From NCBI RefSeq assembly GCF_000812465.1, contig NZ_JWMA01000028.1:1-64000 (forward strand): DNA of 64,000 nucleotides. Reading direction: 5' to 3'. A model generated the notes under the pieces. The model was not told the DNA's origin. It saw only the letters and a list, made by a program, of their open reading frames with translations, and did no database searches. Of the stretch, positions 35,992-49,976 are shown piece after piece (the stretch's first letter is position 1; every line of letters begins with the position of its first letter). Position numbers and translations under genes: made by a program. This stretch comes from Cupriavidus sp. IDO (GTDB lineage: Bacteria; Pseudomonadota; Gammaproteobacteria; Burkholderiales; Burkholderiaceae).

Positions 35992-37941
35992 CTAGGCTCC
36001 CACCTCTGTCCGGAACACCGCCATCGCCTGCTGCATATGCAGCGCCTGCTCCTGCAGGGACTGCGCCGCGGCGGCCGATTGCTCCACCAGCGCGGCGTTT
36101 TGCTGCGTGACCTGGTCCATTTGCGCAATCGCCTGGTTGACCTGGGCGATGCCCGTGCTCTGCTCGCGCGAAGCGTGGCTGATCTCGTCCATCATGGCGG
36201 TAACCTGCCGGATTGCGCTGACGGTCCTCTCCATGGTCGCGGCCGCATCCAGTGTCAGCGTGTTGCCGGATGCCACCCGGTCGGCAGACTGCGAGATCAG
36301 CGCGCGGATCTCCTTGGCCGAGCTGCCCGCGCGCTGCGCCAGTCCGCGCACCTCGGTCGCCACCACGGCAAAGCCGCGACCGGCCTCGCCGGCTCGCGCG
36401 GCTTCCACCGCTGCATTCAGCGCCAGGATATTGGTCTGGAAGGCGATGCTGTCGATCACCGCAATGATCTCGACGATGCGGCGCGAATCGGCCTCGATCT
36501 GCTGCATGGTCTGCTGCATGCGGCCCACTGCCTCGCCGCCGGCCAGCGCGATGCCGGAGGCTTCGCGCGCCAGCTCGCTGGCCTGCCCGGCGCTGCCGGC
36601 GTTCTGCTGCACGGTGGCGGTGAGCTGCTCCATGCTGGCCGCGGTCTGCTCCAGCGAAGACGCCTGTTCCTCGGTGCGCTGCGACAGGTCGAGATTGCCC
36701 TGCGCGATATCGCTAGCGGCCGCCAGCACATTGTACGCACCGGCCTTGGTATCACCGATCAGCGCGCGCCAGCTGTCCACCAGGGACAACAGGTGCCGCT
36801 TGACCTCGCTGAACTCGTCGCGGCCGCGCACCGCCATATGCAGGCCGAGGTCGCCGGCATTGATGCGTTCGACCATTCCGGCCACCTCGCGCACGTCCTT
36901 GCGCATGCCGCGGCTGAACCCAATGAACAGGTAGAACGCGATCGCCACCGTGACCAGGGCTACACCGGCGAGCAGCGCAAACTCCCGCTTCTGCGCAGCG
37001 ATGCGCTGCGCAAGCATCGCGCCGGCGATGGTGGAGAATTCCGTATTGGCCGCCAGCACGCCGTTGATCGCCGCGCTTCCCTCATCAAAATAGGCCTTGG
37101 CCTCGATGTCGATGCCGCTAGCCCCTAGCATCCGCACCTTCAGCGTGCGGTGGAAGTTGTCCATCGCCGCCAGCTTGGCCAGCGCCGCATCTATCTGCGA
37201 CTGGTAGGCAGGTGCGCTGTGGCGCACGCGTGCAATGTCGCGCCGCACCGCTTCCAGCCCGTCGCGGATCTGCTCGGCCAGCGCGCCAAGGTCGGCCTGC
37301 TGTGCCGCATCGGCATAGCCGCCCTGCGCAATGATGCCGGCGCCGCGGCCGCGAGCCAGCGCGCTCTGCTCGGCCAGCCGGGGCATCGGGCCCACCAGCA
37401 GGCTGATCAGGTAGTACGAGGCGGCTTCGCCGTCCAGCGCCAGTTCGGAGCGGTCGGCCACGTCGCCAATGTAAATCTGCGTCTGCCTGACCAGCGCACT
37501 GTGCCGCTCGAAGAGCGGCCCGGCCGGGGTGTTCAGGCCCAGCCTGCGGATCTGTTGCCAGGCCTGCTCCAGCTTGCGCGCTCCGGCATCGAGGTCGAAG
37601 GCGGGGTTTTCGGCGGTGGCCTGGATCAGCTGTGCCAGATCGGCGGCCGCCTTGTTATCCGCACTGTCGAAGGTCGAGCGGAAGCTCGTATTGCCCGCCA
37701 GCACTGCATTGGCCGCGCCGCGCCGCACCTGCGTTTCGCGCATGAAGTCGAGCGCATGGCCGGCCACGGCAAGCCCGCGCATTTCGTTGTCAGTGGCGCG
37801 GATCGCATGCGCCGAACCACTTAGCACGACACACATCGCGCCGCTTAGCGGCACCAGGAACAACACCGCGATCAGCGTGAGCTTCTGGTTGATATTCAGT
37901 CGCGCCATCAGGCGCTCGGCATGGCGAAAAACGGAGGTCAT
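35992..37941 (-). CDS. Methyl-accepting chemotaxis protein
   Basis: An inner-membrane chemoreceptor of 649 residues. Span 1 is at about 19-41 ([20 protein letters not shown]). The periplasmic part (about 45-315) is helical with no obvious PAS or cache core, similar to nitrate-sensor-like four-helix domains. Span 2 is at about 320-340 ([19 protein letters not shown]), followed by a HAMP-like segment ([14 protein letters not shown]). The signalling domain has the conserved hairpin [20 protein letters not shown] and [20 protein letters not shown] (about 495-540). The C-terminus (FRTEVGA) has no CheR-docking pentapeptide. Ligand unknown; it is adjacent to the aromatic catabolic stretch, so an aromatic or organic acid attractant is possible. 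Confidence 0.92.
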
Positions 37942-39032: not shown

Positions 39033-40448
39033 TCAGACCTCCGCGCCGACGGTGCCCGGCGCATTGTGGGCGTTGCCAGTCTTTACGCGCGCCGCAAGCA
39101 GCGCCAGCGACGCGCCGAAGGCCGGCACCGCCAGCAGCCCGAAAATCGTCATGAAGCTCCACCCCAGCCCGACAAGCTGGGCCCCGAGCAGCGCCCCGCT
39201 GATGCCACCGAAGCGGCCCATGCCGAGCATCCAGGACACGCCGGTGGCGCGGCAGTTGGTCGGATAGTGCGCTGCGGCCAGCGTCGGCATGGAGGACTGC
39301 GCCCCGTTCATGCAGATGCCGGCGCCAAAGATCAGGGCGCCCAGCAGGACCAGGTGGCCGGCCCCGTAGCCCACCGCGAAGATCAGCAGCCCTGCCACCG
39401 CGTAAGCCCGCGCAACCACACGATATGGGCTGGCCCGGTCCATCAGCCATCCTGCCGCCACGGTGCCGAGGCAGCCGCCGAGGGGGAACAGCGCGGTGAT
39501 CACCGCAGCGCTACGGATCGGGACGCCGGTGTCCGTGATCAGGGTCGGCAGCCAGCTGGTCAGCAGGTAGAAGACCAGCAGGCCCATGAAGTAGGTGACC
39601 CATAGCATCACCGAAGCCAGCGCGAACTTTTGCGAAAGGACCTGGCCCAGCGGCGAGCATTGCGTGGTTTCCGCCTGTTCCCTGACGACGAAGATCTCAG
39701 TGCCGGTCAGCCGTCCCGGCGCGATACGCGCCAGGACCCTGGCGATGCGGGCGCCTTCGGATCCCCGCGTCACCATGAAACGCACCGACTCGGGAAGCAT
39801 CGCGACGAGGGCGACGGCCAGCAGCAGCGGGGCAATGCCGCCGACCAGCAGCACGGACTTCCAGCCGTACGCCGGGATCAGCCACGCTGCGACGAAGCCG
39901 CCCGCAGATGCGCCCAGCGTGAATCCGCAGAACATCGTGTTGACGGCCAGTCCGCGCCGCGTGGCGGGCGAATACTCCGACATCAGCGTGACCGCGTTGG
40001 GCATCGCGGCACCCAGGCCCACGCCGGTCAGGAAGCGCATCACCGTCAGCGCCTCGATCGAGCCAGCGAACGCCGATGCCAGGCTCCAGCCGCCGAACCA
40101 CACGATCGAGACAACCAGCACGATCCTGCGCCCTACCCTGTCCGCCAGCGGGCCGGCCAGCAGTGCGCCGGCGGCAAGCCCGAACAGGGCGGCGCTCATG
40201 ACCGGGCCCAGGTCGGCCTTGCTGACGCCCCATTGCTTGACCAGCGCGGGCGCGATAAAGCCGATCGCGGCCGTGTCGAAGCCGTCAGCGGCGAGAATCA
40301 GGAAGCACAGGACCAGGATGGTCCACTGGAAGCCAGAGAATTTATGCGAATCGATGAAGGCCTCGACGTCGACTTCAGTGGCGCTCGCGGCGCGCGAGCC
40401 AGGTAGCGACAACGAGGTCGCGCCGGCGGGGAATGAGTAGCTCGTCAT
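39033..40448 (-). CDS. MFS aromatic-acid:H+ symporter (AAHS family)
   Basis: Probably imports the aromatic acid used by this cluster. The 471-residue protein begins MTSYSFPAG after GGAGA and has 12 spans. The first span carries the AAHS signature LILAADGFDTAAIGFIAPAL (D-G-F-D), followed by ADRVGRR after span 2 and MRFLTGVGLGAAMPNAVTLMSEYSP in span 4, matching the PcaK/BenK group closely; the second half has YFMGLLVFYLLTSWLPTL. It is the last gene of the minus-strand array, 579 bases behind the GntR regulator, so it may have its own promoter. The substrate in this family is usually a benzoate-type acid. Confidence 0.9.
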   Translation of the reverse strand: MTSYSFPAGATSLSLPGSRAASATEVDVEAFIDSHKFSGFQWTILVLCFLILAADGFDTAAIGFIAPALVKQWGVSKADLGPVMSAALFGLAAGALLAGPLADRVGRRIVLVVSIVWFGGWSLASAFAGSIEALTVMRFLTGVGLGAAMPNAVTLMSEYSPATRRGLAVNTMFCGFTLGASAGGFVAAWLIPAYGWKSVLLVGGIAPLLLAVALVAMLPESVRFMVTRGSEGARIARVLARIAPGRLTGTEIFVVREQAETTQCSPLGQVLSQKFALASVMLWVTYFMGLLVFYLLTSWLPTLITDTGVPIRSAAVITALFPLGGCLGTVAAGWLMDRASPYRVVARAYAVAGLLIFAVGYGAGHLVLLGALIFGAGICMNGAQSSMPTLAAAHYPTNCRATGVSWMLGMGRFGGISGALLGAQLVGLGWSFMTIFGLLAVPAFGASLALLAARVKTGNAHNAPGTVGAEV

Positions 40449-41027
40449 GAGCGTTGTCTCCGGTTTGGAGGCGTGTGGCAGCCCGGCTGCGTGCCCCTCT
40501 GTTTTCGACTGATATCGACATGCATCGCGTGCGGGGCGTGCCCGCAGGATTGCTGTCGACTTTCGCTGGCCGGCGATGGATGGCGCGGGGTTGCCAGGGC
40601 AGGGCTCCGCTGCGAGTTTCACAGGCCGGATTCAGTCTATCGAGCGGGACATGGATTGACTTGCATGCGGCGAGTCCCGATTTTGCGCGCGTATCACGCG
40701 TTGAATTCGCGCGTGGACCCCTGCGCGGGACATGACGCCGAGGTGCGTGCCAGGCATGAACGCCGCCATCAACAGGGCCGTGGCATTGACCGCGGCCTCA
40801 GGGTGCTGACAAACCATTGGAGTAGCCTCCGGCCGGCGCAGTAGTAAGGCGTTCGTCGACCAGCGCGCTGGACCTAAGCCGCCATCCCCGGTGATCGCTC
40901 CCCTCCCGCGCAGTGGGGAAAGGGGAGCAAACCGGCAGCGTGTGAAGGTTGTCAGCAATCTGAGGCCGCGGCCTTCACCGCGGCCTGACTGCAAACTTAC
41001 AGGTGAAGAGGGTCTGGGAGCCCGACG
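40449..41027. other. Spacer between MFS and GntR genes
   Basis: No gene is firmly supported. A hairpin CTCCCCTCCCGCGC...GGGGAAAGGGGAG at 40896-40927 probably terminates the GntR transcript. A minus-strand ORF through 40632-40994 is doubtful because it reads through that hairpin. Confidence 0.45.
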
Positions 41028-41756
41028 CTAGGCCGCCGTCACGAACAGCCGCATCGCAGGCATGACCTGCGAGGCTTGCTCGGGGCGGTCTAGCGCGGTT
41101 TCGAGATTCAGGCGGGCAACATTGACGTGCTCGGTCGCCAGAGCCTGGGCGCGCGTGCCTTCGCCACGATTCATGGCATCGAACAGGCTGTGGTGCTGCC
41201 GATGCGCGTAGACGAGCCATTGCTGGCCTTCCTGGACCGCGGACTGCATCGGCAGCATGGCGCTGGCCGCGGCAAACGGCAGCCGGTTGTTCAGTTCGAT
41301 GGCGCGTGCCAGCGCGCTGTTGCCGCTGCCCTCAACGATCAGCGCGTGGAAGCGGTCGTTCATATTGCTGTACGCGACATAGTCGTCATAGTCGAGCTGC
41401 GCCTTGGTCAGGACCCGGTCGCCCTCGCGCAGGCAATCCTGCAGGTCCAGCGACAGTTGCCGCGACAGCCCGTGCTCGGCGACCAGCCGCGCAGCCATGC
41501 CCTCCAGGTGCCCCCGTACCGCGATCGCATCCTGGATCTCGCGCGGGGTGAAGCGGCGCATCATGTAGCCGCTGCTGGGCGAAGGCTCGATCAGGCCTTC
41601 CTGTTCCAGCGAGGCAAGCGCCAGCCGGACCGGCGTGCGGGAGACGCCGAGCTTTTCGGCCAGCGGGATCTCGGCCAGACGCGCGCCCGGCTCGAATTCG
41701 CCCTTCAGGATCAGGTCACGCAGTTGAACCAGGACACGTGTCTGGTGGGATTCCAT
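41028..41756 (-). CDS. GntR-family transcriptional regulator (FCD type)
   Basis: A likely repressor of the aromatic cluster. The 242-residue protein starts MESHQTRVLVQLRDLILKGEFEPG. The winged helix (about residues 5-72) contains LAEIPLAEKLGVSRTPVRLALASLEQEGLIEPSPSSGYMMR, the GntR signature. The C-terminal FCD domain (about 80-225) has a helical fold with metal-ligand-type His residues in RFHALIVEGSGN and YAHRQHHSLFDAM. The gene lies 95 bases behind the reductase gene within the array. Candidate operators with TGCATACA half-sites lie in the 47.1-47.5 kb intergenic region. Confidence 0.9.
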   Translation of the reverse strand: MESHQTRVLVQLRDLILKGEFEPGARLAEIPLAEKLGVSRTPVRLALASLEQEGLIEPSPSSGYMMRRFTPREIQDAIAVRGHLEGMAARLVAEHGLSRQLSLDLQDCLREGDRVLTKAQLDYDDYVAYSNMNDRFHALIVEGSGNSALARAIELNNRLPFAAASAMLPMQSAVQEGQQWLVYAHRQHHSLFDAMNRGEGTRAQALATEHVNVARLNLETALDRPEQASQVMPAMRLFVTAA

Positions 41757-41851
41757 TGCACCCTCTTGAGATGGTGGCCACGGCCGCATTGCATACGAGA
41801 TCGGCCAAGCTGCATGCAGCTTGCGAGATGGTACACCAGACCAGCCCGCCC

Positions 41852-43087
41852 CTACGCCGACAGCAGCGACTTCAGCGCCACCGCTTCGTCCGCCAGCACG
41901 GCGGGATCCGGACGCACCCTTGCGGCCACCAGGCGCCGCGCCGCCATGTGGTCCTGCGGGCGATTGACCGAATGGGCGCCGACAACCGTGCCGTCCTTCA
42001 GGTAAAGCGCCGTGAAGCGCCCCGCGGCCACATTGCCGCGCACCACCGCCTGGTCGTGGCCCGCGGAAAATCCCGTCATCTGCAGCTTGTAGCCGTACTG
42101 GTCGGACCAGAACCATGGCACCGCTTCATAGGGCGAGAGCCGGCCCGCGACGGTGGCGCCGGCGACCTTGGCCAGGTCGTTCGCGCTCTGGATCGATTCG
42201 ACACGCACGCACCGGCCACCCAGCGTACTGCCCGGCGCCCAAGGATTGGGATAAGCCGCGCAATCACCCGCTGCGACGATGGCCGGGTCGCTGGTGCGCG
42301 CGAACCGGTCGACCACGATGCCGTTGTCCACCGTCAGGCTGCAAGCCTCGGCCAACTCCACGTTCGGCATCACGCCCAGGCCAGCGACGACCATGTCTGT
42401 TGGCAGGATCTCACCGGTCTCCAGCTCCACTCCGGTGACGACATCGTTGCCTCGGAGCTGGCGGATGCAGGTCGCCAGCCGGAAGCGTACGCCCTCCTCT
42501 TCATGGGCCTGCTGCAGGAAGGTCGAGATCAGCGGCGGCACGGCACGCTGCAGCAGGCGTTCCTGCAGTTCAATCACCGTCACGTCGAGACCGAGCGTGC
42601 GCAACGATGCCGCCACCTCCAGGCCGATAAAGCCGCCGCCGACGACCACCGCGTGCCTTGCCTGACGCGCGCGCGCCTTGATCTCGTAGGCATCGGCAAG
42701 ATCGCGCAGGTAATACACGTGGCGCAGCTGCGCACCGGCGCATGGCAGCGGCCGGCAGCGCGCGCCGGTGGTCAGGGCCAGCGCGTCGTAGTGCAGCCGG
42801 CTGCCGTCGGACAGGGAAACGACCTGCGCCTGCCGGTCGATGCCGCTGGCCGTAACGCCCGTGCGCAGCGCGATGCGCTCTTCGAGGAATCGCTCCGGCG
42901 ACTGCAGCGGCAGGCTTGAGGCGTCCACCGCATCGCAGAGGAAGCCCTTGGACAGCGGCGGCCGCTGGTAAGGAGCGTGCGGCTCGGCGCCAATCATGGT
43001 GATACTGCCGGCGAAGCCGTTCGCGCGCGCGGCCAGCGCGAGCTGGGTGCCCGCGTATGAGGCGCCGATGATGACGAGTCCGGCCAT
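41852..43087 (-). CDS. FAD-dependent ferredoxin reductase (Rieske oxygenase electron transfer)
   Basis: Transfers electrons from NAD(P)H to the ferredoxin of the oxygenase. The 411-residue protein starts MAGLVIIGASYAGTQLALAARANGF (FAD-binding GxSxAG loop). The pyridine-nucleotide motif HAVVVGGGFIGLEVAASLRTLG is at about residue 145, and VAAGDCAAYPNP lies near 270 for the second FAD contact. Length and layout match the rubredoxin/putidaredoxin reductase-like class with a C-terminal reductase domain. Three bases separate it from the ferredoxin gene, so the two are translated together. Product specificity is inferred from its neighbours. Confidence 0.92.
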   Translation of the reverse strand: MAGLVIIGASYAGTQLALAARANGFAGSITMIGAEPHAPYQRPPLSKGFLCDAVDASSLPLQSPERFLEERIALRTGVTASGIDRQAQVVSLSDGSRLHYDALALTTGARCRPLPCAGAQLRHVYYLRDLADAYEIKARARQARHAVVVGGGFIGLEVAASLRTLGLDVTVIELQERLLQRAVPPLISTFLQQAHEEEGVRFRLATCIRQLRGNDVVTGVELETGEILPTDMVVAGLGVMPNVELAEACSLTVDNGIVVDRFARTSDPAIVAAGDCAAYPNPWAPGSTLGGRCVRVESIQSANDLAKVAGATVAGRLSPYEAVPWFWSDQYGYKLQMTGFSAGHDQAVVRGNVAAGRFTALYLKDGTVVGAHSVNRPQDHMAARRLVAARVRPDPAVLADEAVALKSLLSA

Positions 43088-43090
43088 GGT

Positions 43091-43414
43091 CTACCCCTGC
43101 GTTTCCGGGACATGCACGACCAGGCCGTCGAGCGCGTCGTTGACGACGATCTGGCAGCTCAGCCGGCTGGCCGGCCGGCGTTCGGCGGCCACGCCGTCCA
43201 GCAGTTCATGCTCCATGTCGTCGGGCGCGGGCAGCAGCTCCGCCCAGGGCGCATCGATATACACATGGCAGGTCGCGCAGGAACAGCAACCGCCGCACTC
43301 GGCGTCGATTCCGCGCACATTGTTGGCGATCGCAACTTCCATCAGCGTCTTTCCGCTCGCTGAAGCCACGTCTTTGCGGCTGCCATCTTTCAGGACATAG
43401 ATAATTGTCGGCAT
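43091..43414 (-). CDS. 2Fe-2S ferredoxin (adrenodoxin/putidaredoxin type)
   Basis: Carries electrons from the FAD reductase to the Rieske oxygenase. The 107-residue protein has cluster ligands Cys40, Cys46, Cys49 and Cys87 in the pattern C-x5-C-x2-C...C (AECGGCCSCATCHVYID and RLSCQI), as in vertebrate-type ferredoxins. The motif EHELLDGVAAERRPASRLSC between ligands 3 and 4 is also typical. It lies between the glutamine-synthetase-like gene (21 bases) and the reductase gene (3 bases), in the same operon. The plant-type (C-x4-C-x2-C) spacing is excluded. Confidence 0.93.
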   Translation of the reverse strand: MPTIIYVLKDGSRKDVASASGKTLMEVAIANNVRGIDAECGGCCSCATCHVYIDAPWAELLPAPDDMEHELLDGVAAERRPASRLSCQIVVNDALDGLVVHVPETQG

Positions 43415-43435
43415 GACATCCTCACTGCGGTTTGA

Positions 43436-44872
43436 TCAGAACGTATCGAAGTACTCGCGCTGCTCCCAGTCGCTGACCTCGAGGTTGAATCGCGCTATCT
43501 CTGCCTGCTTGATGTGGCAGAAGTAATCGACGAACGCACTGCCCATGCCCTCGCGCAGGGCATCGTCTGCCTGCAGGCAAGCCAACGCTTCCTCGAGCGT
43601 CCGCGGCAACTGCGGCGCCGGGGTTTCGTAAGGCGAATCCGCCGACGGGCCCGGGTCAAGGCGGCGCTGGATGCCGTCGAGCCCGGCGATCACCTGCGAC
43701 GCGAGATAGAGATAGGGATTGGCAGCGGGCTCGCCGACGCGGTTTTCAATCCGTGTGGCCACATCGCCCGGCCCGCCCAGCACGCGCAGCATGGCGCCGC
43801 GGTTGTCGCGCGCCCAGATCGCGCGGTCCGGCGCCAACGAATACGCGCGGAAGCGCTTGTAGCCATTGATGGTCGGCGTGGCGAAAGCTGTCGCCGCGCA
43901 GGCATGTTGCAGCAGGCCGGCCAGGTAATGGCGCCCGACCTCGGACAGGTCCTGGCCGACGGCGTCGGGCATCATTGCGTTCCCGCCGTCGCCCAGCCGC
44001 GTCAGCGACTGGTGCAGGTGCCAGCCGCTCGACACGACATTGCGGATTTTGGGGCGGCACATGAAGGTCGCATGGTAGCCATGCCGCTTGCATACCTGCT
44101 TGACGGCACTGCGGAACAGCACCATCGCATCGGCCGTGGCGACCGGCGTCGCGGGCGCAAAGGTGAATTCGAACTGGCTGGGGCCGAACTCGATCTCCAG
44201 CGAACGCACCGGCAGGCCAAGCTGCTGCACGTTCTCGCGGATCAGCTCGATCACGGTCTCGGTGGCGTCATAGCGCAGCTCGGTCAGGAACTGGTAGCCG
44301 TGCGACAACAGCTCAACTTCAGGCGGCTCGCCGGGCTGGCCGGCATCGTCCGGGGTCATGTGCTCGCGCACCAGGCGGAACACATGGAACTCGACTTCCA
44401 ATCCGGTGACAAGCTGGTAGCCGGCCGCCGCCAGTTGCTCCTCCGCGTTGCGCAGGATACGGCGCGTGGCGAACGGCACGGGCCGGCCATCCTGGAAATA
44501 CGGGTCGCACAGGATCCACCCGGCCTTCGGCGACCAGGGCAGCACCCGGAAGGTCGACGGATCGGGAATGAGCGTCACATCCGCCCCGCCCTGCATGCCG
44601 GGCATGTCGAAGCCGCCGCCCGCGCTGAACACGGGAAAGACCGTGCGGTGCGATGTGTCCTTGGCGAACAGCGTGGTAGTCACGTTCACGCCGCCCCGTA
44701 ACGCCTTGATCGCTTCCGATGCGACCAGCGTCTTGCCTCGCAGCACGCCATGCTGGTCCGGGAAGGAAAAACGCACGACTTCGATGTCCCCCGCGGCCAG
44801 CCGCTGCGCGACGTCTGCCGCGGCACGGCCATGGGAATCGGTCCAGAGGCCGAATTGTTCTACAAATGCCAT
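43436..44872 (-). CDS. Glutamine-synthetase-like gamma-glutamyl ligase
   Basis: A 478-residue member of the glutamine synthetase fold, here probably joining glutamate to an amine other than ammonia. It keeps the ATP- and metal-binding blocks: GLEVEFHVF (about residue 155), EIEFGPSQFEFTFAPA (about 226), the HLHQSL catalytic loop (about 283), DNRGAMLRVLGG (about 357) and RIENRVGEPAANPYLYLA (about 372). It starts at MAFVEQFGLW. The genome context, next to a Rieske oxygenase, ferredoxin and reductase, parallels the aniline pathway, in which a GS-like enzyme makes gamma-glutamylanilide before ring oxidation. It is unlikely to be the housekeeping GlnA. Substrate is inferred, not seen. Confidence 0.85.
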   Translation of the reverse strand: MAFVEQFGLWTDSHGRAAADVAQRLAAGDIEVVRFSFPDQHGVLRGKTLVASEAIKALRGGVNVTTTLFAKDTSHRTVFPVFSAGGGFDMPGMQGGADVTLIPDPSTFRVLPWSPKAGWILCDPYFQDGRPVPFATRRILRNAEEQLAAAGYQLVTGLEVEFHVFRLVREHMTPDDAGQPGEPPEVELLSHGYQFLTELRYDATETVIELIRENVQQLGLPVRSLEIEFGPSQFEFTFAPATPVATADAMVLFRSAVKQVCKRHGYHATFMCRPKIRNVVSSGWHLHQSLTRLGDGGNAMMPDAVGQDLSEVGRHYLAGLLQHACAATAFATPTINGYKRFRAYSLAPDRAIWARDNRGAMLRVLGGPGDVATRIENRVGEPAANPYLYLASQVIAGLDGIQRRLDPGPSADSPYETPAPQLPRTLEEALACLQADDALREGMGSAFVDYFCHIKQAEIARFNLEVSDWEQREYFDTF

Positions 44873-44955
44873 ATGGGTCCGGCCCACCGCATCGAGCAAC
44901 GCGGTGCAGCCGCCTCGGTTGGTTAATCTCGATGCGTCGGTCCTGTCGCCGCCAC

Positions 44956-46269
44956 TCAGCCGCGCGAGGCCCATTCCGATTCGGTCCTACGCCTGGCATC
45001 GGCCCCGATCCAGTACTCGTCAGCCGGCTGGTTCACGCTGACGCCATCGATCGATGCCGGCCCGGTCAGCGTTGCCGCCTCGGCGGCGTCGACCATCATC
45101 AGCGCCTTTTCGCCCCGCTGGTGGGCATCGATTGCCGCGACCAGCTGCTTGCGGTAGGCGATGATTCCCTTGTCGGTTGTGCCCAGGTGCTCGCGAGTGC
45201 GGTCCTGGATCGGGCCCTGCGATTCGACTGCCCACTGGTCATGGACGTTGATGTCGTGGCCCATGCCCGTGTAGGTCTGCGTGCGCTGCTCGTAGGGGTT
45301 GAAGTCATAGTGATTGCGCTTGTTCTGACGCGGCCGGTAGTCCGGCAGTTCGTACAGCGCCAGGCGCTGTTCGCGCATCTGCTGCTTGTCGACCGGCGCG
45401 GTGAAGCTGGTGAAGATGGCGTACCAGTAGCAGCTGGTGTCGTCGATGGGCACATGCCATTGCGCGATCGTCATCTCCGCGCTCATTGGGATAATGAAGG
45501 CCTGTGGGAACACCACGTTGGTCACGCGCACATGCCGGTGGCCGTCGCCGAGTTCGCGCAGCGCGGTCAGGCGCATGCCATAGTCGGTCGGCGCGATGCT
45601 GATGTCCGGGCAGTCGTACTCGCGCAGCACCTGCGTGATCGGCATCGCCGAATCGGCCGAGGCGCCGCGGAATTGCTTGCCGTAGCTTTCCGAGACGTCG
45701 TCGTCCTCGAAGAAGCGGTGCAGGAAGGACGCGTGCGCGGGATCGATGCCGACCTCGAGCGCCTGCAGCCAGTTGCACTCAAGCAGCCCCTTGAACGCGA
45801 ACGTGTACGGGTCCGGGGCAATGAAGCAGTCGAAGGCCGGGAATGCCGGCGGCTCGCCTTCACCGATAAAGGCGAACAGCACGCCGCTGCGCTCGACGAT
45901 CGGGTAGGCGATCTGGCGGACGCGCTGGCACAGCTTGCTGCCGGCGGGTTCCGCTGGCGTTTCCAGACACGTGCCGTTGCGAGCGAACAGCCAGCCGTGG
46001 AACGGGCAGCGCAGGCCGCCGTCTTCCAGGCGCCCGAAGCTCAGGTCCGCGCCGCGGTGCGGGCAGTCGCGGTCGAGCATGCCGTACTGGCCGTGCTCAT
46101 CGCGGAACACGACAAAGTCCTGGCCCATCAGGCGAACTGGGCGCACCGGGCGCTCTCCCTCGAACTCATCGACCAGCGCCACCGGCTGCCAGTACTGCCG
46201 CAACAGGCGGCCGCCGGGGGTATCCGCGCCGACGCGCGTCATCAGTTCGTTCTGTTCTCTGGACATCAT
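44956..46269 (-). CDS. Rieske non-heme iron ring-hydroxylating oxygenase, large subunit type
   Basis: Likely attacks the aromatic ring or a substituent. The 437-residue protein starts MMSREQNELMTRVG. Rieske ligands are Cys69, His71, Cys88 and His91 (CPHRGADLS and CPFHGW). The catalytic iron site is Glu172/Asp176, His179 and His184 in LEVGIDPAHASFLHR. Length, absence of a small-subunit gene and the NWLQALE segment fit the phthalate-dioxygenase/vanillate-demethylase-type homomultimeric oxygenases rather than the two-subunit toluene type. It lies 83 bases upstream of the GS-like gene and 110 bases behind the nitroreductase gene. Its own electron chain (ferredoxin plus reductase) follows in the operon. 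Confidence 0.93.
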   Translation of the reverse strand: MMSREQNELMTRVGADTPGGRLLRQYWQPVALVDEFEGERPVRPVRLMGQDFVVFRDEHGQYGMLDRDCPHRGADLSFGRLEDGGLRCPFHGWLFARNGTCLETPAEPAGSKLCQRVRQIAYPIVERSGVLFAFIGEGEPPAFPAFDCFIAPDPYTFAFKGLLECNWLQALEVGIDPAHASFLHRFFEDDDVSESYGKQFRGASADSAMPITQVLREYDCPDISIAPTDYGMRLTALRELGDGHRHVRVTNVVFPQAFIIPMSAEMTIAQWHVPIDDTSCYWYAIFTSFTAPVDKQQMREQRLALYELPDYRPRQNKRNHYDFNPYEQRTQTYTGMGHDINVHDQWAVESQGPIQDRTREHLGTTDKGIIAYRKQLVAAIDAHQRGEKALMMVDAAEAATLTGPASIDGVSVNQPADEYWIGADARRRTESEWASRG

Positions 46270-46378
46270 GATGGGGGTGTCTCCTGCTAAAGCGTCATGG
46301 AAGGTTGTGGACACGGCCACGTCCCTGATTGATGCATGGAAGTCCGGACATACGCGCCCGGCGTGCGGCTTCGACAAG

Positions 46379-47086
46379 CTATGCAGCCGCCGCGTCGAAT
46401 CCCTGGAATGAGGCGAAGGCATCCACTGGCAGCCGGGACTGGCGTATCGCCAGTTCGGGAGCACTGGTATCGGCGTAGCCCAGCGACATGCCGCACAGCA
46501 CGAGCTCATCGTCGGGAATGGCGAGGCAGCACCGCAGCACCTTGTGGAAGCGCGCAATGGAAACCTGCGGGCAGGTATCTAGCCCGCAGGCCCGGGCCGC
46601 CAGCATGACGTTCTGCAGGAACATCCCATAGTCGAGCCAGCTTCCCTGCGCGAGCCTGCGGTCGATGGTGAAGACCATGCCCACCGGCGCGTCGAAGAAG
46701 CGGAAATTGCGCGCTGTCTGCCGGGCCCGCCCTTGTACATCGTCAGGTTGGATGCCGAGGGCCCCGTAGAAGACCTGCCCGAACTGCCGCTTGCGCGAGG
46801 CATACGGCTCCAGGCCAGCGTCGGGGTAATAGGGGTACTCCTCCGCGTGCGCCTCGGCGTGATGGCGGTGCGCCGTCTCGACTTGCGCGCAAAGGGCCGC
46901 CTTGGCGGCACCGGCCACGACATAGACGCGCCACGGCTGCAAGTTGGCGCCACTGGGCGCATGGCTGGCAGTTCGCAGGATGTCGCGGACCACGTCCAGC
47001 GGAACCTGCCCTGGCATGAAGCGACGGACGGCGACGCGTCCTTCGATCGCGTCGCGGGCCGTCATCGGCGCTTTATCTTCCTTCAC
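46379..47086 (-). CDS. Nitroreductase family protein (candidate nitrobenzoate reductase)
   Basis: A 235-residue FMN-dependent enzyme of the nitroreductase fold. The FMN-binding motifs RVAVRRFMPGQVP (about residues 17-29), SHAPSGANLQPWRVYVV (about 41-57) and the C-terminal LCGMSLGYADTSAPELA block are present, as is the dimer-interface QNVMLAARACGLDTCPQ. Such enzymes reduce nitro groups to hydroxylamino or amino groups with NAD(P)H. The gene is first in the minus-strand array and is separated by 398 bases from a divergent AraC regulator. A PnbB-like lyase gene is only 1.4 kb away, so this could be the PnbA-type reductase of a 4-nitrobenzoate route. Family call firm, substrate inferred. Confidence 0.85.
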   Translation of the reverse strand: MKEDKAPMTARDAIEGRVAVRRFMPGQVPLDVVRDILRTASHAPSGANLQPWRVYVVAGAAKAALCAQVETAHRHHAEAHAEEYPYYPDAGLEPYASRKRQFGQVFYGALGIQPDDVQGRARQTARNFRFFDAPVGMVFTIDRRLAQGSWLDYGMFLQNVMLAARACGLDTCPQVSIARFHKVLRCCLAIPDDELVLCGMSLGYADTSAPELAIRQSRLPVDAFASFQGFDAAAA

Positions 47087-47232
47087 TTCTCACCCCTCTT
47101 CTCTGGCCTTTCCGGCTCCGAATGGGCCGGTCGACAGGCTTTTCGCTCCTTTTGTGGAAGCGAGTTCAGGATAGGCAGGCGTGTCCGGCAAATATTGAAT
47201 GAGGCGATCGGAGATTTTTCCCGTGGAGCGCT

Positions 47233-47246
47233 AACTGCATACAGTT
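47233..47246. promoter_or_regulatory. Palindromic operator candidate
   Basis: AACTGCATACAGTT is a perfect inverted repeat around CATA, lying 147 bases upstream of the nitroreductase start. It shares the CTGCATACA core with 47405-47413. GntR-type regulators of the FCD class often bind such TGTATACA-like sites. Confidence 0.5.
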
Positions 47247-47384
47247 CCGCACAATCTACTTTGTAGACGTAGCGAGTGAACAAATTGGAGAGCTCTAAAA
47301 CGCATAAATATCCCGGGAATTCGCAGATAGTGTGGATTTTGCGAGGCAAAGAGCACTCCAGTATGGAGGGTCAGTACTTATATC

Positions 47385-47419
47385 TGTATGCTGCATCTGA
47401 TTTGCTGCATACAATGCAG
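47385..47419. promoter_or_regulatory. Cluster of inverted repeats, operator candidate
   Basis: TGTATGC (47385-47391) faces GCATACA (47407-47413), and CTGCATACAATGCAG (47405-47419) is itself a palindrome. The cluster lies 65-100 bases upstream of the AraC regulator start and resembles the site at 47233. Confidence 0.55.
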
Positions 47420-47484
47420 TGTATCCCGACCTCCGGACAAACCAGCCGAACCGCTGGCATCCGGCCTCGATTGAGGACCCCGCC

Positions 47485-48342
47485 ATGCTCCGCGTCGCCA
47501 ACACCCCCTGCCGCAGCCGCGTCACCGCCTCCTGGGCCGGTACCGAGATCGAGGTGCTGGAATTCGGCCCGCTGGAAGACATCGCGCGCCCGATCGGCTC
47601 AGACAGGCTGTCGTTGCGCGCAGCGCTGCGCGAAGCCGGCGGCCATATCGATGCGCGCCTGCAACCGTGGAAGCCGCTCGACAATGCCTACCACGGCAAC
47701 GACCACCTCAGCCTGATCGCCGGCAGCGCCGAGGCCTATGGCCACACCGAACGCATCGAGCAGTTCCGCTGTGCCGTGGTGCATTTCCCTGACGAGTTGA
47801 TGCGCGACGCGTCCGACAGCGAGCAGATCCACGCCACATTGGGCACGCGGCTGATGTTCGAGCATCGCGCGATGTGGGACATCGCGGACAAGCTGGCGCA
47901 GGAATGCGTCGCCCCGGGGACGGGCCGGCGCCTGTACTGCGAGAGCCTGGTCGGCCTGCTGGCCGTCGAGATCGTCCGCTGGCGGCAGTCACAGACGCGC
48001 GCGGCCAACAAGGGTGGCCTGGCCCCCTACCGCTTACGCCGCGTTTTCGACTACATCGAAGCCAATCTCGGCACCGAGATCGCACTGGTCGACCTTGCAA
48101 CCATGGCCGCACTGAGCCTGCCGCATTTCATGCGTGCCTTCCGCGCCTCGACCGGCGAAGCGCCGCTGCGCTTCATCATGCAGCGGCGCGTCAAGCACGC
48201 GCAATCGCTGCTGCTGAAGGGCAACACGCCGCTGGTCAGCATTGCGCACGACTGCGGCTTTGCCGACCAAGCTCACATGACGACCTGTTTCCGCCGGCTT
48301 GCCGGTACCACGCCGGCGCGCTTTCGGCGGGATCGTTCCTGA
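47485..48342 (+). CDS. AraC-family transcriptional regulator
   Basis: Probably controls the divergent catabolic operon. The 285-residue protein starts MLRVANTPCRSRV with GAGGA upstream; 22 codons before that lack conservation. The C-terminal AraC domain (about 185-285) has ALVDLATMAALSLPHFMRAFRASTGEAPLRFIMQRRVKHAQSLL and then VSIAHDCGFADQAHMTTCFRRLAGTTPARFRR, both helix-turn-helix units of the family. The N-terminal 170 residues are a probable effector-binding domain of unknown ligand. It is read away from the nitroreductase gene, across a 398-base spacer with palindromic sites, and toward the PnbB-like gene 122 bases downstream. Confidence 0.9.
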   Translation: MLRVANTPCRSRVTASWAGTEIEVLEFGPLEDIARPIGSDRLSLRAALREAGGHIDARLQPWKPLDNAYHGNDHLSLIAGSAEAYGHTERIEQFRCAVVHFPDELMRDASDSEQIHATLGTRLMFEHRAMWDIADKLAQECVAPGTGRRLYCESLVGLLAVEIVRWRQSQTRAANKGGLAPYRLRRVFDYIEANLGTEIALVDLATMAALSLPHFMRAFRASTGEAPLRFIMQRRVKHAQSLLLKGNTPLVSIAHDCGFADQAHMTTCFRRLAGTTPARFRRDRS

Positions 48343-48464
48343 GCCGCTACCGCGGCCGGCGCCGTCTTGCACGACGTTCAATTTGAGCTTGAAGCATCAT
48401 CGCTTCCGCAGCCGCAGGGCGTGTGGCATCGTTATTCGCACACACACTGAAGTGAGGATATCCA

Positions 48465-49019
48465 ATGAAGAACGCTCTTCCGGTCGACAACAAGGACGCC
48501 CTGATCGCACGTTGCCTGCCCTTCCTGCAAGAAGTCAGGGACATGACGCCCGGCACCGAAGTCGAGCGCTGGCTCAATGACAAGTACGGCGTGCACAGCG
48601 ACCTCTACCAGGACCTCGCGCGCATGATCACTGCCGGCGTGAAGGAAGGCTGGGCGGCAGATACCGAGATCGCGGGCCGCCGCTATCGGCGCGCGCGCCT
48701 GCTCGCCCCTTGCGAGCAGACTAACTGGTTCAGCATCACCGCGGTGTACATGGACAGCACCGGCAATACGCAGCGCAATCCCGAAGACTCGTTCCGCGGC
48801 GACTACCACAGCCATCCGTATGGCGAGTTCAACATGGTGGTAGCGCTTGACGAAGGCGCGGCGCTGGCCGGCCCGAACGGATGGTGCTACGGGGGGTGGA
48901 CCGCGCCGGAACCCGGCAGTCACCACTACCCGGAAGCCAAGGGCGGCGCCGTCATCGCACTATTTTTCCTGCCCGCCGGCCGCATCGCCTACAACATCAA
49001 GGCCCCCGACGCCCAGTGA
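48465..49019 (+). CDS. pnbB: 4-hydroxylaminobenzoate lyase-like protein (PnbB family)
   Basis: The 184-residue protein fits the PnbB family (formerly DUF4863), which converts 4-hydroxylaminobenzoate to protocatechuate and ammonia. Typical blocks are LPFLQEVRDMTPGTEVERWLN, GWAADTEIAGRRYRRARL, SFRGDYHSHPYGEFNMVVAL (His residues at about 114-116) and the late GWTAPEPGSHHYPEAKGGAVI, which form a cupin-like metal site. GAGGA precedes the ATG. It follows the AraC regulator by 122 bases on the same strand and overlaps the LysR gene tail to tail. Together with the nitroreductase it could open the 4-nitrobenzoate ring route described in Pseudomonas putida TW3. Family assignment good, substrate not proven. 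Confidence 0.8.
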   Translation: MKNALPVDNKDALIARCLPFLQEVRDMTPGTEVERWLNDKYGVHSDLYQDLARMITAGVKEGWAADTEIAGRRYRRARLLAPCEQTNWFSITAVYMDSTGNTQRNPEDSFRGDYHSHPYGEFNMVVALDEGAALAGPNGWCYGGWTAPEPGSHHYPEAKGGAVIALFFLPAGRIAYNIKAPDAQ

Positions 49020-49976
49020 TGCCGCAATGCCCGCAAGTTCGCCACGCAGCCATTGCAGCGCGGGATCGTGTGCATTGCGGGCATGCCAGATCGCACGGAC
49101 CGCGGCAACAGAGGCCGCATACGGTGTGGCGCGGCAGACCCAACCGCCCTGGCTGACGAACGCCCGGGCCAGCGGCCCGGGCACCAGCGCCAGCATGTCG
49201 CTGTTGCGCAGCAATGCGGGAATCGCCAGCGAGTGCGCGACCGATATCCTCAATCGCGGCCCGGCATCCATATCGGGAAACGCCTCCTCCAGTGACTGCC
49301 GGCTGAACATCTCCGACTGACGAGCGAGCCCGCGCTCGGTAATGAAGCCGCTGACCGCCCCCTCTTCCTGGCCACCGGTGGATACCGTCAACAGCGGGTA
49401 TGTGCGCAGGTCTTCCCGCGTCACGGTGCGATGCGCGACTGGGTGTGCCTGCCGCATGAGCAGCACGTCAGCCTGCTCCCACAGTGTCGTCGCGTGGAAC
49501 CGGCCCGGGACGTCGGCAAAGATCCCCACGGCAATGTCGATCCTGCCAAGGTCGATCTGGCCGGCAAGGTCCAGCCGCGTGGATGGGCGGATGCTGACAT
49601 TCACATGCGGTGCCAGCGCCGCCAGGCGCTCGCTCAGCGGTGCCAGCAACAGCCAGGTGATGTAGTCATTGGCAGCGACGACAAACTCGCGCCTCGCGGC
49701 ATCGGGCACAAACGGCTCGATCCCGAGCGCGGCCTCGATCTGCCGCAGTGCGCTGCGCAGCGGCTCCGCCATGCTCATCGCGCGTGCTGTCGGCTCCATG
49801 CCCCGGGCTGTGCGCACGAACAGGTCGTCGCCTAGCAGGTCGCGCAACCGGCCCAGCGCATGACTGACCGCGGACTGCGTCACGTGCAGCCGCTTGCCGG
49901 CGAGCAGCAGGTTCCTGTCCTCGAAGATCGCGTCGAACACGCGCAGCAGGTTGAGATCGACTCGCCCTAGGTTCAT
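48960..49976 (-). CDS. LysR-family transcriptional regulator
   Basis: A 338-residue regulator. The N-terminal winged helix (VDLNLLRVFDAIFEDRNLLLAGKRLHVTQSAVSHALGRLRDLLGDDLFVR, residues 6-55) is the LysR signature. The effector domain follows with FVVAANDYITWLLLAPLSERLA, IDIAVGIFADVPG and HSLAIPALLRNSDMLALVP. It is convergent with the PnbB-like gene, and the 3' ends overlap by 60 bases, so the two transcripts are antisense there. The pnb genes of other bacteria are accompanied by a LysR regulator, which fits. Target and effector unknown. Confidence 0.92.
   Translation of the reverse strand: MNLGRVDLNLLRVFDAIFEDRNLLLAGKRLHVTQSAVSHALGRLRDLLGDDLFVRTARGMEPTARAMSMAEPLRSALRQIEAALGIEPFVPDAARREFVVAANDYITWLLLAPLSERLAALAPHVNVSIRPSTRLDLAGQIDLGRIDIAVGIFADVPGRFHATTLWEQADVLLMRQAHPVAHRTVTREDLRTYPLLTVSTGGQEEGAVSGFITERGLARQSEMFSRQSLEEAFPDMDAGPRLRISVAHSLAIPALLRNSDMLALVPGPLARAFVSQGGWVCRATPYAASVAAVRAIWHARNAHDPALQWLRGELAGIAASLGVGGLDVVGDAAGGQEK

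Follow-up and report, generated by a model that had tools for sequence, protein, structure and literature searches.

A predicted Sad-type gamma-glutamylating dioxygenase cluster joined to pnb genes in a soil Cupriavidus

The 64-kb stretch of DNA analysed here (hereafter the window) comes from a soil Cupriavidus, whose 7.9-Mb genome is very near Cupriavidus necator, and holds at 39033-49976 ten genes in which a single-subunit Rieske oxygenase (RO) and a ligase resembling glutamine synthetase (GS) are found together with a nitroreductase and a PnbB-type lyase. On balance, we think it probable that these genes make up a composite catabolic locus in which two parallel branches lead to protocatechuate, one for 4-nitrobenzoate via PnbA/PnbB, the other for 4-aminobenzoate via gamma-glutamylation and dioxygenation. 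The mechanism class, a Sad-type gamma-glutamylating dioxygenase, is well supported, and 4-aminobenzoate is a likely substrate as judged from the sequence. Open reading frame (ORF) calls, profile searches and motif searches give the following features:

39033..40448, minus strand: AAHS/PcaK-like aromatic acid transporter (MFS_1 4e-47; NF053517 PcaK 4.8e-162)
41028..41756, minus strand: GntR/FCD regulator, predicted TGYATRCA binder (PF00392 1e-14 / PF07729 6e-14)
41811..41818: TGYATRCA site upstream of gntR (a site there in 11 of 11 Cupriavidus stretches, window included)
41852..43087, minus strand: FAD-dependent ferredoxin reductase, FdR (Pyr_redox_2 PF07992 5e-62; Reductase_C PF14759 2.7e-33)
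43091..43414, minus strand: [2Fe-2S] ferredoxin, Fd, in the SadD position (Fer2 PF00111 8.8e-9)
43436..44872, minus strand: GS-like ligase, GoaS/SadB type (Gln-synt_C PF00120 2.5e-83)
44956..46269, minus strand: RO, single alpha subunit, SadA/LigXa-like (Rieske PF00355 4e-20; LigXa_C PF19301 4e-27)
46379..47065, minus strand: FMN-type nitroreductase, PnbA candidate, first gene of the array (PF00881 7.8e-28)
47236..47243: TGYATRCA site, 171 bases before the nitroreductase start (matching site L034:7975 in C. necator A5-1)
47406..47413: TGYATRCA site, 79 bases before the araC start used here (matching site L034:7817)
47485..48342, plus strand: AraC-family regulator (HTH_18 PF12833 1.7e-20)
48465..49019, plus strand: PnbB, predicted 4-hydroxylaminobenzoate lyase, type I (PF16155 5.8e-61)
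48960..49976, minus strand: LysR regulator, PnbR candidate, convergent with pnbB (PF00126/PF03466; LysR_substrate 4e-23)

A sequence-only reading of this DNA had recognized a minus-strand array of nitroreductase, RO, GS-like ligase, ferredoxin, FAD reductase, GntR and AAHS transporter, with AraC and PnbB (plus strand) and LysR (minus strand) beside it, and our ORFs and Pfam matches confirm all ten genes and their strands. Several program-called ORFs begin too early, and their starts were reset by alignment with relatives (RO 46269, GS-like 44872, GntR 41756, MFS transporter 40448, nitroreductase 47065, AraC 47485); alternative GTG starts are possible for the nitroreductase (47086) and AraC (47419). 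Since gaps of 109, 83, 21, 3 and 95 bases separate the successive genes from the nitroreductase through RO, GS, Fd and FdR to GntR, this part of the array is likely, as a prediction, to be an operon. Against NF053517 PcaK the transporter reaches 540 bits, under the cut-off of 770. The block is 97% identical over 12.4 kb to megaplasmid p1 of C. necator C39, and the search for a conserved gene order that the earlier reading had proposed found RO-GS-Fd-FdR-GntR in all eight other RO-bearing genomes of a 60-genome Cupriavidus sample; the block is therefore no accident of ORF calling.

The Rieske motif (C69/H71/C88/H91) and the mononuclear-iron motif (D176/H179/H184) of the RO are intact at the positions first read from the sequence, and are invariant in eight aligned sequences (the window and seven relatives). 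Window ORFs and Pfam matches show no beta-subunit gene beside the RO, its neighbours being the ligase and the nitroreductase. The nearest solved chains are 7fjl and 7fhr, the latter named a putative phthalate 4,5-dioxygenase, and we predict the protein to be a 4-aminobenzoate 3,4-dioxygenase. A GS-like gene adjoins the RO in 79 of 80 RO loci, which are the best 80 of at least 575 confirmed matches and not counts of the whole collection; in two of these (L069 and L104) the contig breaks off within the GS gene, and the eightieth locus, L084, ends 307 bases past the RO. A like ferredoxin gene is present in 45 of the 80; this and the other presence counts for these loci refer to the DNA stretch around each RO, some stretches being cut by contig ends.

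Single-subunit oxygenase, GS-like protein and ferredoxin likewise make up SadA/SadB/SadD, the 4-aminobenzenesulfonate 3,4-dioxygenase of Hydrogenophaga PBC, as far as the accessible parts of the sources describe it (PMC5632844, PMC3704786). In stretch L203, which stems from a congener of strain PBC and not from PBC itself, RO-GS-Fd stand behind a GntR gene in the same order as in the window, with identities of 58% (RO), 48% (GS) and 46% (Fd). The reductase of the Sad system is presumably SadC. Of 60 Hydrogenophaga genomes, 46 carry an RO of the window type (35 of 38 when the good ones alone are counted), and the sad operon is likewise reported as widespread in this genus in the accessible part of PMC5632844; the same RO-GS pair is pointed out in Novosphingobium Rr 2-17 in that of PMC3704786. 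The architecture of RO, GS-like protein and ferredoxin is therefore already known, and the suggestion of the sequence-only reading that an oxygenase of one subunit and a dedicated ferredoxin may represent a new pathway variant is not supported. Neighbour clustering of 96 RO-GS stretches, with ORFs chosen by a GC3-weighted pick, showed an IclR regulator gene near the pair in 26 and a CHMI-family gene in nine, including pSA3 of Novosphingobium resinovorum (examples for IclR and CHMI: L109:9115-9918 / L083:5593-5940). A gene for a branched-chain-type periplasmic binding protein was found in 45 of the 96, mostly with ABC permeases and ATPases (e.g. L061:8599-9822), and these genes perhaps serve an aromatic substrate.

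The window ligase keeps all eleven catalytic residues that we checked, which bind glutamate, ATP and metal. The roles of these residues in GS are known in part from work on NpaA1. Relative to GS, the window ligase has S53 replaced by G, Y179 by F, N264 by V and the flap E327 by L, and lacks a counterpart of the adenylylation Tyr397; the two ordinary GlnA proteins of the same genome keep the eleven residues as well as S53, Y179, N264, E327 and Tyr397. As the catalytic residues are kept but the flap Glu and the adenylylation Tyr are lost, the ligase appears unlike an ammonia-using GS. Contrary to the organic-amine pattern, the column of D50 holds D in the window ligase, in an N-terminal part where the alignment is weak and GlnA is gapped in the neighbouring loop. 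Phylogenetically, the organic-amine ligases are separated from GlnA and PuuA (100/99), with PuuA joining GlnA on a very long branch, so that a grouping of the ligase with ammonia or polyamine GS, which the earlier reading had named as the result that would speak against it, is not what the tree shows. The window ligase groups with ligases encoded next to oxygenases of the single-subunit kind, and the proteins of pLME1 and NpaA1 are grouped separately; a single clade of all Sad-type rows receives weak support (66/51). In this tree the over-long frames of L006 and L064 were cut to the last 490 residues, L031 and L086 are short frames, and L014 and L203 carry one and the same protein, which is counted twice here and in the arene-loop alignment.

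The best solved relative of the ligase is 8wwu/8wwv/8x6z (432 bits, against 186 for the next), which we take to be NpaA1; identity is 42% to NpaA1 and 48% to the pLME1 protein. Hydrophobic residues of the NpaA1 loop V68-M81 hold the arene, according to the accessible part of PMC11335346. At the position of F75 the window ligase has Lys, and the hydrophobic residue of the arene loop is thus not kept there. Lys is found in 37 of the 43 rows that have this column, all of them Sad-type; the six others carry Phe (pLME1, NpaA1, L022), Leu (L023, L024) or Met (PuuA). Arg or Lys occupies the position of S80 in 35 of 43 rows. L031 is gapped in this alignment, and a separate alignment shows its Lys. At the order level, a SadA-like RO (51-66% identity) is present in 16 of 20 ligase loci, and all 12 of these that were aligned have Lys; the ligase of L007 has Lys, yet no RO within 1.5 kb, and L022-L024, which do not have it, show weak Rieske matches only. 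Lys in place of Phe is a difference within the organic-amine group and does not exclude the ligase from it. A Lys here would suit a carboxylate or a sulfonate on the ring, and in this respect the amino-aromatic acid named as ligase substrate by the earlier reading was a good guess. The arene loop lies at a subunit interface, which a model of a single chain would miss. The ligase is best described as a predicted gamma-glutamyl-4-aminobenzoate synthetase, and the arene-loop residue offers a single-residue marker by which ligases of the aniline type may be told from those of the acid type.

PnbA and PnbB reportedly form the 4-nitrobenzoate pathway of P. putida TW3. They convert 4-nitrobenzoate via 4-hydroxylaminobenzoate to protocatechuate, as the accessible parts of PMC9590159 and PMC13400229 describe, and the pnb pathway is also present in R. 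pickettii YH105 and P. terrae KU-15 (PMC9302171). In Cupriavidus the PF16155 family consists of two subfamilies, and the host genome has one gene of each. The type I stretches (L140-L155) encode proteins 62-100% identical to the window PnbB; a like LysR gene accompanies all 16 of them, the window's included, and a nitroreductase match lies within the 3.5-kb stretches in full length in eight and partially in two. Type II proteins (30-36% identical to the window PnbB) have neither a like LysR nor a like nitroreductase gene within 1.5 kb. The second PF16155 gene of the host (G000:C146:38389-38820) is 31% identical to the window PnbB, and its subfamily is common in Burkholderiaceae. Outside Cupriavidus, the closest relatives of the nitroreductase in a plasmid collection are PnbB-adjacent (Methylobacterium nodulans 54%, Neorhizobium galegae 53%). 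The nitroreductase match is in two pieces in Caballeronia insecticola (L028:5672-6360) and in C. pinatubonensis HN-2 (L026:6573-7234), and the latter strain has another nitroreductase beside PnbB (L147).

The tie between PnbB and the oxygenase, suspected from the window, extends across genera. Among 299 genomes of the family, the RO is present in 17, type I PnbB in 27 and both in 13 (Fisher p=2e-12; 2e-11 without the host's own genome), the genomes being related and therefore not independent, and the type I lists being read by hand from match spans. Within the genus sample, type I PnbB occurs in seven of nine RO genomes, compared with 16 of 60 overall (p=8e-4). On the same contig and at most 13 kb from the RO, a PnbB gene is found in 13 of the 17 RO genomes, namely 12 of type I and the 45% identical one of G324; the four without a nearby PnbB are G332, G546, G374 and G415, in the last two of which the RO lies at a contig end. 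The corresponding number for the genus is seven of nine, G326 and G332 being the two others. When 95 RO rows were placed in a tree, the 16 linked to PnbB were spread over four separate branches (Cupriavidus; Paraburkholderia/Caballeronia; Xenophilus L064; Methylobacterium L030), with eight changes in PnbB linkage, at least seven of which are forced by well-supported branches and some of which are losses. L124 and L129 (copies of L034 and L026) as well as L025 and L123 (near-copies of the window) were omitted from this tree, L026 and L130 were set by hand as PnbB-linked, and some 'not linked' labels are unsure, as 28 of 94 loci do not have 8 kb on both sides of the RO. Gene orders vary among the PnbB-linked loci. 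PnbB and RO-GS have thus been brought together repeatedly, which points to a functional link.

P. terrae KU-15 grows on 4-nitrobenzoate and carries pnbB, pnbR and pnbA under the tags 35480, 35500 and 35570; its tags rise by ten per gene, as seen in twelve nba genes from 72150 to 72260 (PMC9302171). Query mapping in P. phymatum gave the ten-gene order PnbB-MFS-LysR-GATase-FdR-Fd-GS-RO-GntR-NTR (GATase, glutamine amidotransferase; NTR, nitroreductase). The spacing of the KU-15 pnb tags fits this order, RO-GS included, as a matter of tag arithmetic and not of sequence.

Regulation is likely to be a second tie between the two sets of genes. Of 46 divergent GntR/RO spacers, 36 contain TGCATACA (on either strand) and 33 contain TGCATGCA, as opposed to 0.15 and 0.1 in shuffles. 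At most 600 bases upstream of the RO, TGYATRCA is present in all 44 of the 80 RO loci that have this GntR (at least 50% identity), but in only one of the 36 without it, and its density upstream of the RO is 141 times that of the rest. The number of TGYATRCA sites in the window, three, is not above the chance mean of 3.7, and therefore their placing alone speaks: all three lie within the cluster, two between araC and the nitroreductase and one before gntR. In C. necator A5-1, TGYATRCA stands before the nitroreductase, before the RO and before gntR, and a divergent GATase gene lies between RO and nitroreductase. These approximately 1.1 kb (GATase gene and RO operators; L124:10289-11478 in A5-1) are absent from the window at 46269-46379, from C39 and from G313, and consequently RO, ligase and electron carriers of the window would fall under the nitroreductase promoter. 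TGYATRCA was not found before the nitroreductase of C. pinatubonensis HN-2, in Hydrogenophaga L203 despite its GntR gene, or in four alphaproteobacterial loci without this GntR (L030, L031, L108, L211). We predict that GntR binds TGYATRCA and governs a common regulon of nitro and amino genes. A 14-base palindrome, AACTGYATRCAGTT, occurs at one place in the host genome, as does a reversed-pattern control, and so is no evidence; promoter and terminator patterns were not above shuffles.

From these genes we infer the following course of events. In the nitro branch, the nitroreductase, in the role of PnbA, would reduce 4-nitrobenzoate to 4-hydroxylaminobenzoate, which PnbB would turn into protocatechuate and ammonia, with LysR as a PnbR-like regulator. 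In the amino branch, the GS-like ligase would use ATP and glutamate to form the gamma-glutamyl amide of 4-aminobenzoate; the RO, supplied with electrons by FAD reductase and ferredoxin, would dioxygenate it at C3-C4, and the resulting diol would shed glutamine (or glutamate and ammonia) to yield protocatechuate. The MFS carrier would import the acids, and GntR would control the nitroreductase-RO-GS-Fd-FdR array and itself through the TGYATRCA sites. The protocatechuate ring would be opened by pcaHG, and both pcaH and pcaG are found above equivalog cut-offs elsewhere in the host genome. It could well be, and we would put it no higher than that, that 4-aminobenzoate is the natural substrate, left open by the discoverers, of the widespread Sad-type enzymes, whose genes would then serve the aerobic breakdown of this compound through gamma-glutamylation, that the arene-loop Lys marks ligases for anionic arylamines, and that one GntR regulon ties both funnels.

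Several observations weigh against two branches meeting at protocatechuate. PnbB is present in only seven of the 80 RO loci and a like nitroreductase in three, some loci being cut by contig ends; the RO-GS module must therefore work alone in many hosts. The sole tested Sad system acts on a sulfonate. Linkage to pca genes as proof of the product had to be abandoned, with weak PcaH matches in two of 101 loci and PcaG in none, and linkage to p-aminobenzoyl-glutamate hydrolase came to one partial AbgA match in 101 loci (L107). C. metallidurans CH34 grows on 4-aminobenzoate, according to the accessible part of PMC8879955, and its genome gives neither an RO match at E<=1e-100 nor a PnbB match, and a single GS match (33% identical); a 4-aminobenzoate phenotype therefore needs no such cluster, and other routes exist. 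Four GATase queries, finally, found no GATase gene in the window. In aniline pathways this enzyme limits toxic gamma-glutamylanilide (PMC4539516), and in related Cupriavidus a GATase gene lies beside the cluster. Elsewhere in the host genome, four partial C26 matches pass a lenient cut-off, all within frames of 421-609 aa; in addition, a frame of 239 aa (C177:21538-21933) shows 37% identity with the pLME1 GATase across residues 59-195, so a GATase may act from elsewhere in the genome.

The cluster can also be read in other ways. First, the same enzymes might use a different arylamine, either anionic or para-substituted (4-aminobenzenesulfonate, aminosalicylate or an aminobenzoate isomer), with pnb as a separate pathway stored beside them. 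The tested relative Sad acts on 4-aminobenzenesulfonate (accessible parts of PMC5632844 and PMC3704786); a pair on pSA3 of the 4-aminobenzenesulfonate degrader N. resinovorum SA1, near a maleylacetate reductase gene, shares 63% (RO) and 60% (ligase) identity with that of the window; and, as far as the stretches reach, the core module is without PnbB in 73 of 80 RO loci. However, PnbB linkage recurs, the substrate of PnbB is the 4-hydroxylamino analogue of 4-aminobenzoate, and the window's contig has no PF00775 ring-cleavage dioxygenase, so that we regard another substrate as rather unlikely.

Alternatively, the pathway might be serial, the nitroreductase reducing the nitro group fully to the amine for ligase and RO, with PnbB as a side branch. 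Nitroreductase and RO are neighbours on one strand, with TGYATRCA before the former and none between them. Nevertheless, the adjoining PnbB takes the hydroxylamine, the two genes are separated in A5-1 by a GATase gene of divergent orientation and by distinct operators for the RO, and the like nitroreductase is rare among RO loci, which makes a serial pathway improbable. The coupling of nitro reduction with gamma-glutamylation proposed by the sequence-only reading thus probably holds as shared regulation, given the operators, and is not supported as a chain of reactions, given the substrate of PnbB and the scarcity of both genes. That the nitroreductase and PnbB genes are in decay, or lie here by chance, and play no part beside the amine pathway, as the split nitroreductase matches in C. 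insecticola and C. pinatubonensis HN-2 might indicate, is most improbable in view of the family-wide linkage (among related genomes), the four separate branches and the intact frames of the window.

The tested member of this enzyme family breaks down a chemical of the dye industry, and the cluster suggests what the family may act on in nature: given the recurrent presence of PnbB, the charge in the arene loop and the operator, 4-aminobenzoate is a specific and testable candidate for this family across alpha- and betaproteobacteria. New here are the association of RO with type I PnbB, that of TGYATRCA with GntR, and the residue pattern of the ligase with Lys for Phe; no published description of a combination of pnb and RO-GS genes was found in the open-licence literature. 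Elsewhere in the window, a gene for a methyl-accepting chemotaxis protein adjoins the cluster (35992-37941, minus strand), and 1764-25780 holds exopolysaccharide (EPS) genes (GalU, UDP-glucose dehydrogenase-like, VpsF-like, EPS transport kinase, polysaccharide export protein).

Compared with known systems, the window shares with LigX-type demethylases and phthalate-dioxygenase-type oxygenases the LigXa_C domain and the nearest solved chains, but no such oxygenase is known to act together with a GS-like ligase. The aniline, chloroaniline and 1-naphthylamine systems (AtdA, DcaQ/TdnQ, NpaA1) likewise combine a GS-like ligase with a Rieske oxygenase, yet they have alpha and beta oxygenase subunits, a GATase gene and Phe in the arene loop of the ligase, whereas in the window the oxygenase has a single subunit, Fd and FdR are separate, Lys replaces the Phe and a GATase gene is lacking. 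With the PnbA/PnbB/PnbR pathway it has in common that nitroreductase, PF16155 lyase and LysR gene occur together, although its nitroreductase heads the RO array behind GntR-type operators instead of lying directly beside PnbB. Closest is the Sad system of Hydrogenophaga intermedia PBC, with the same single-subunit oxygenase, GS-like protein and ferredoxin, in the order that L203 shows behind GntR; to these the window adds an adjoining FAD reductase (none showed in L203), nitroreductase, PnbB, LysR, AraC and transporter, as well as the TGYATRCA sites that L203 does not have. The cluster is thus predicted to be a Sad-type gamma-glutamylating dioxygenase joined to pnb genes under a common GntR regulon.

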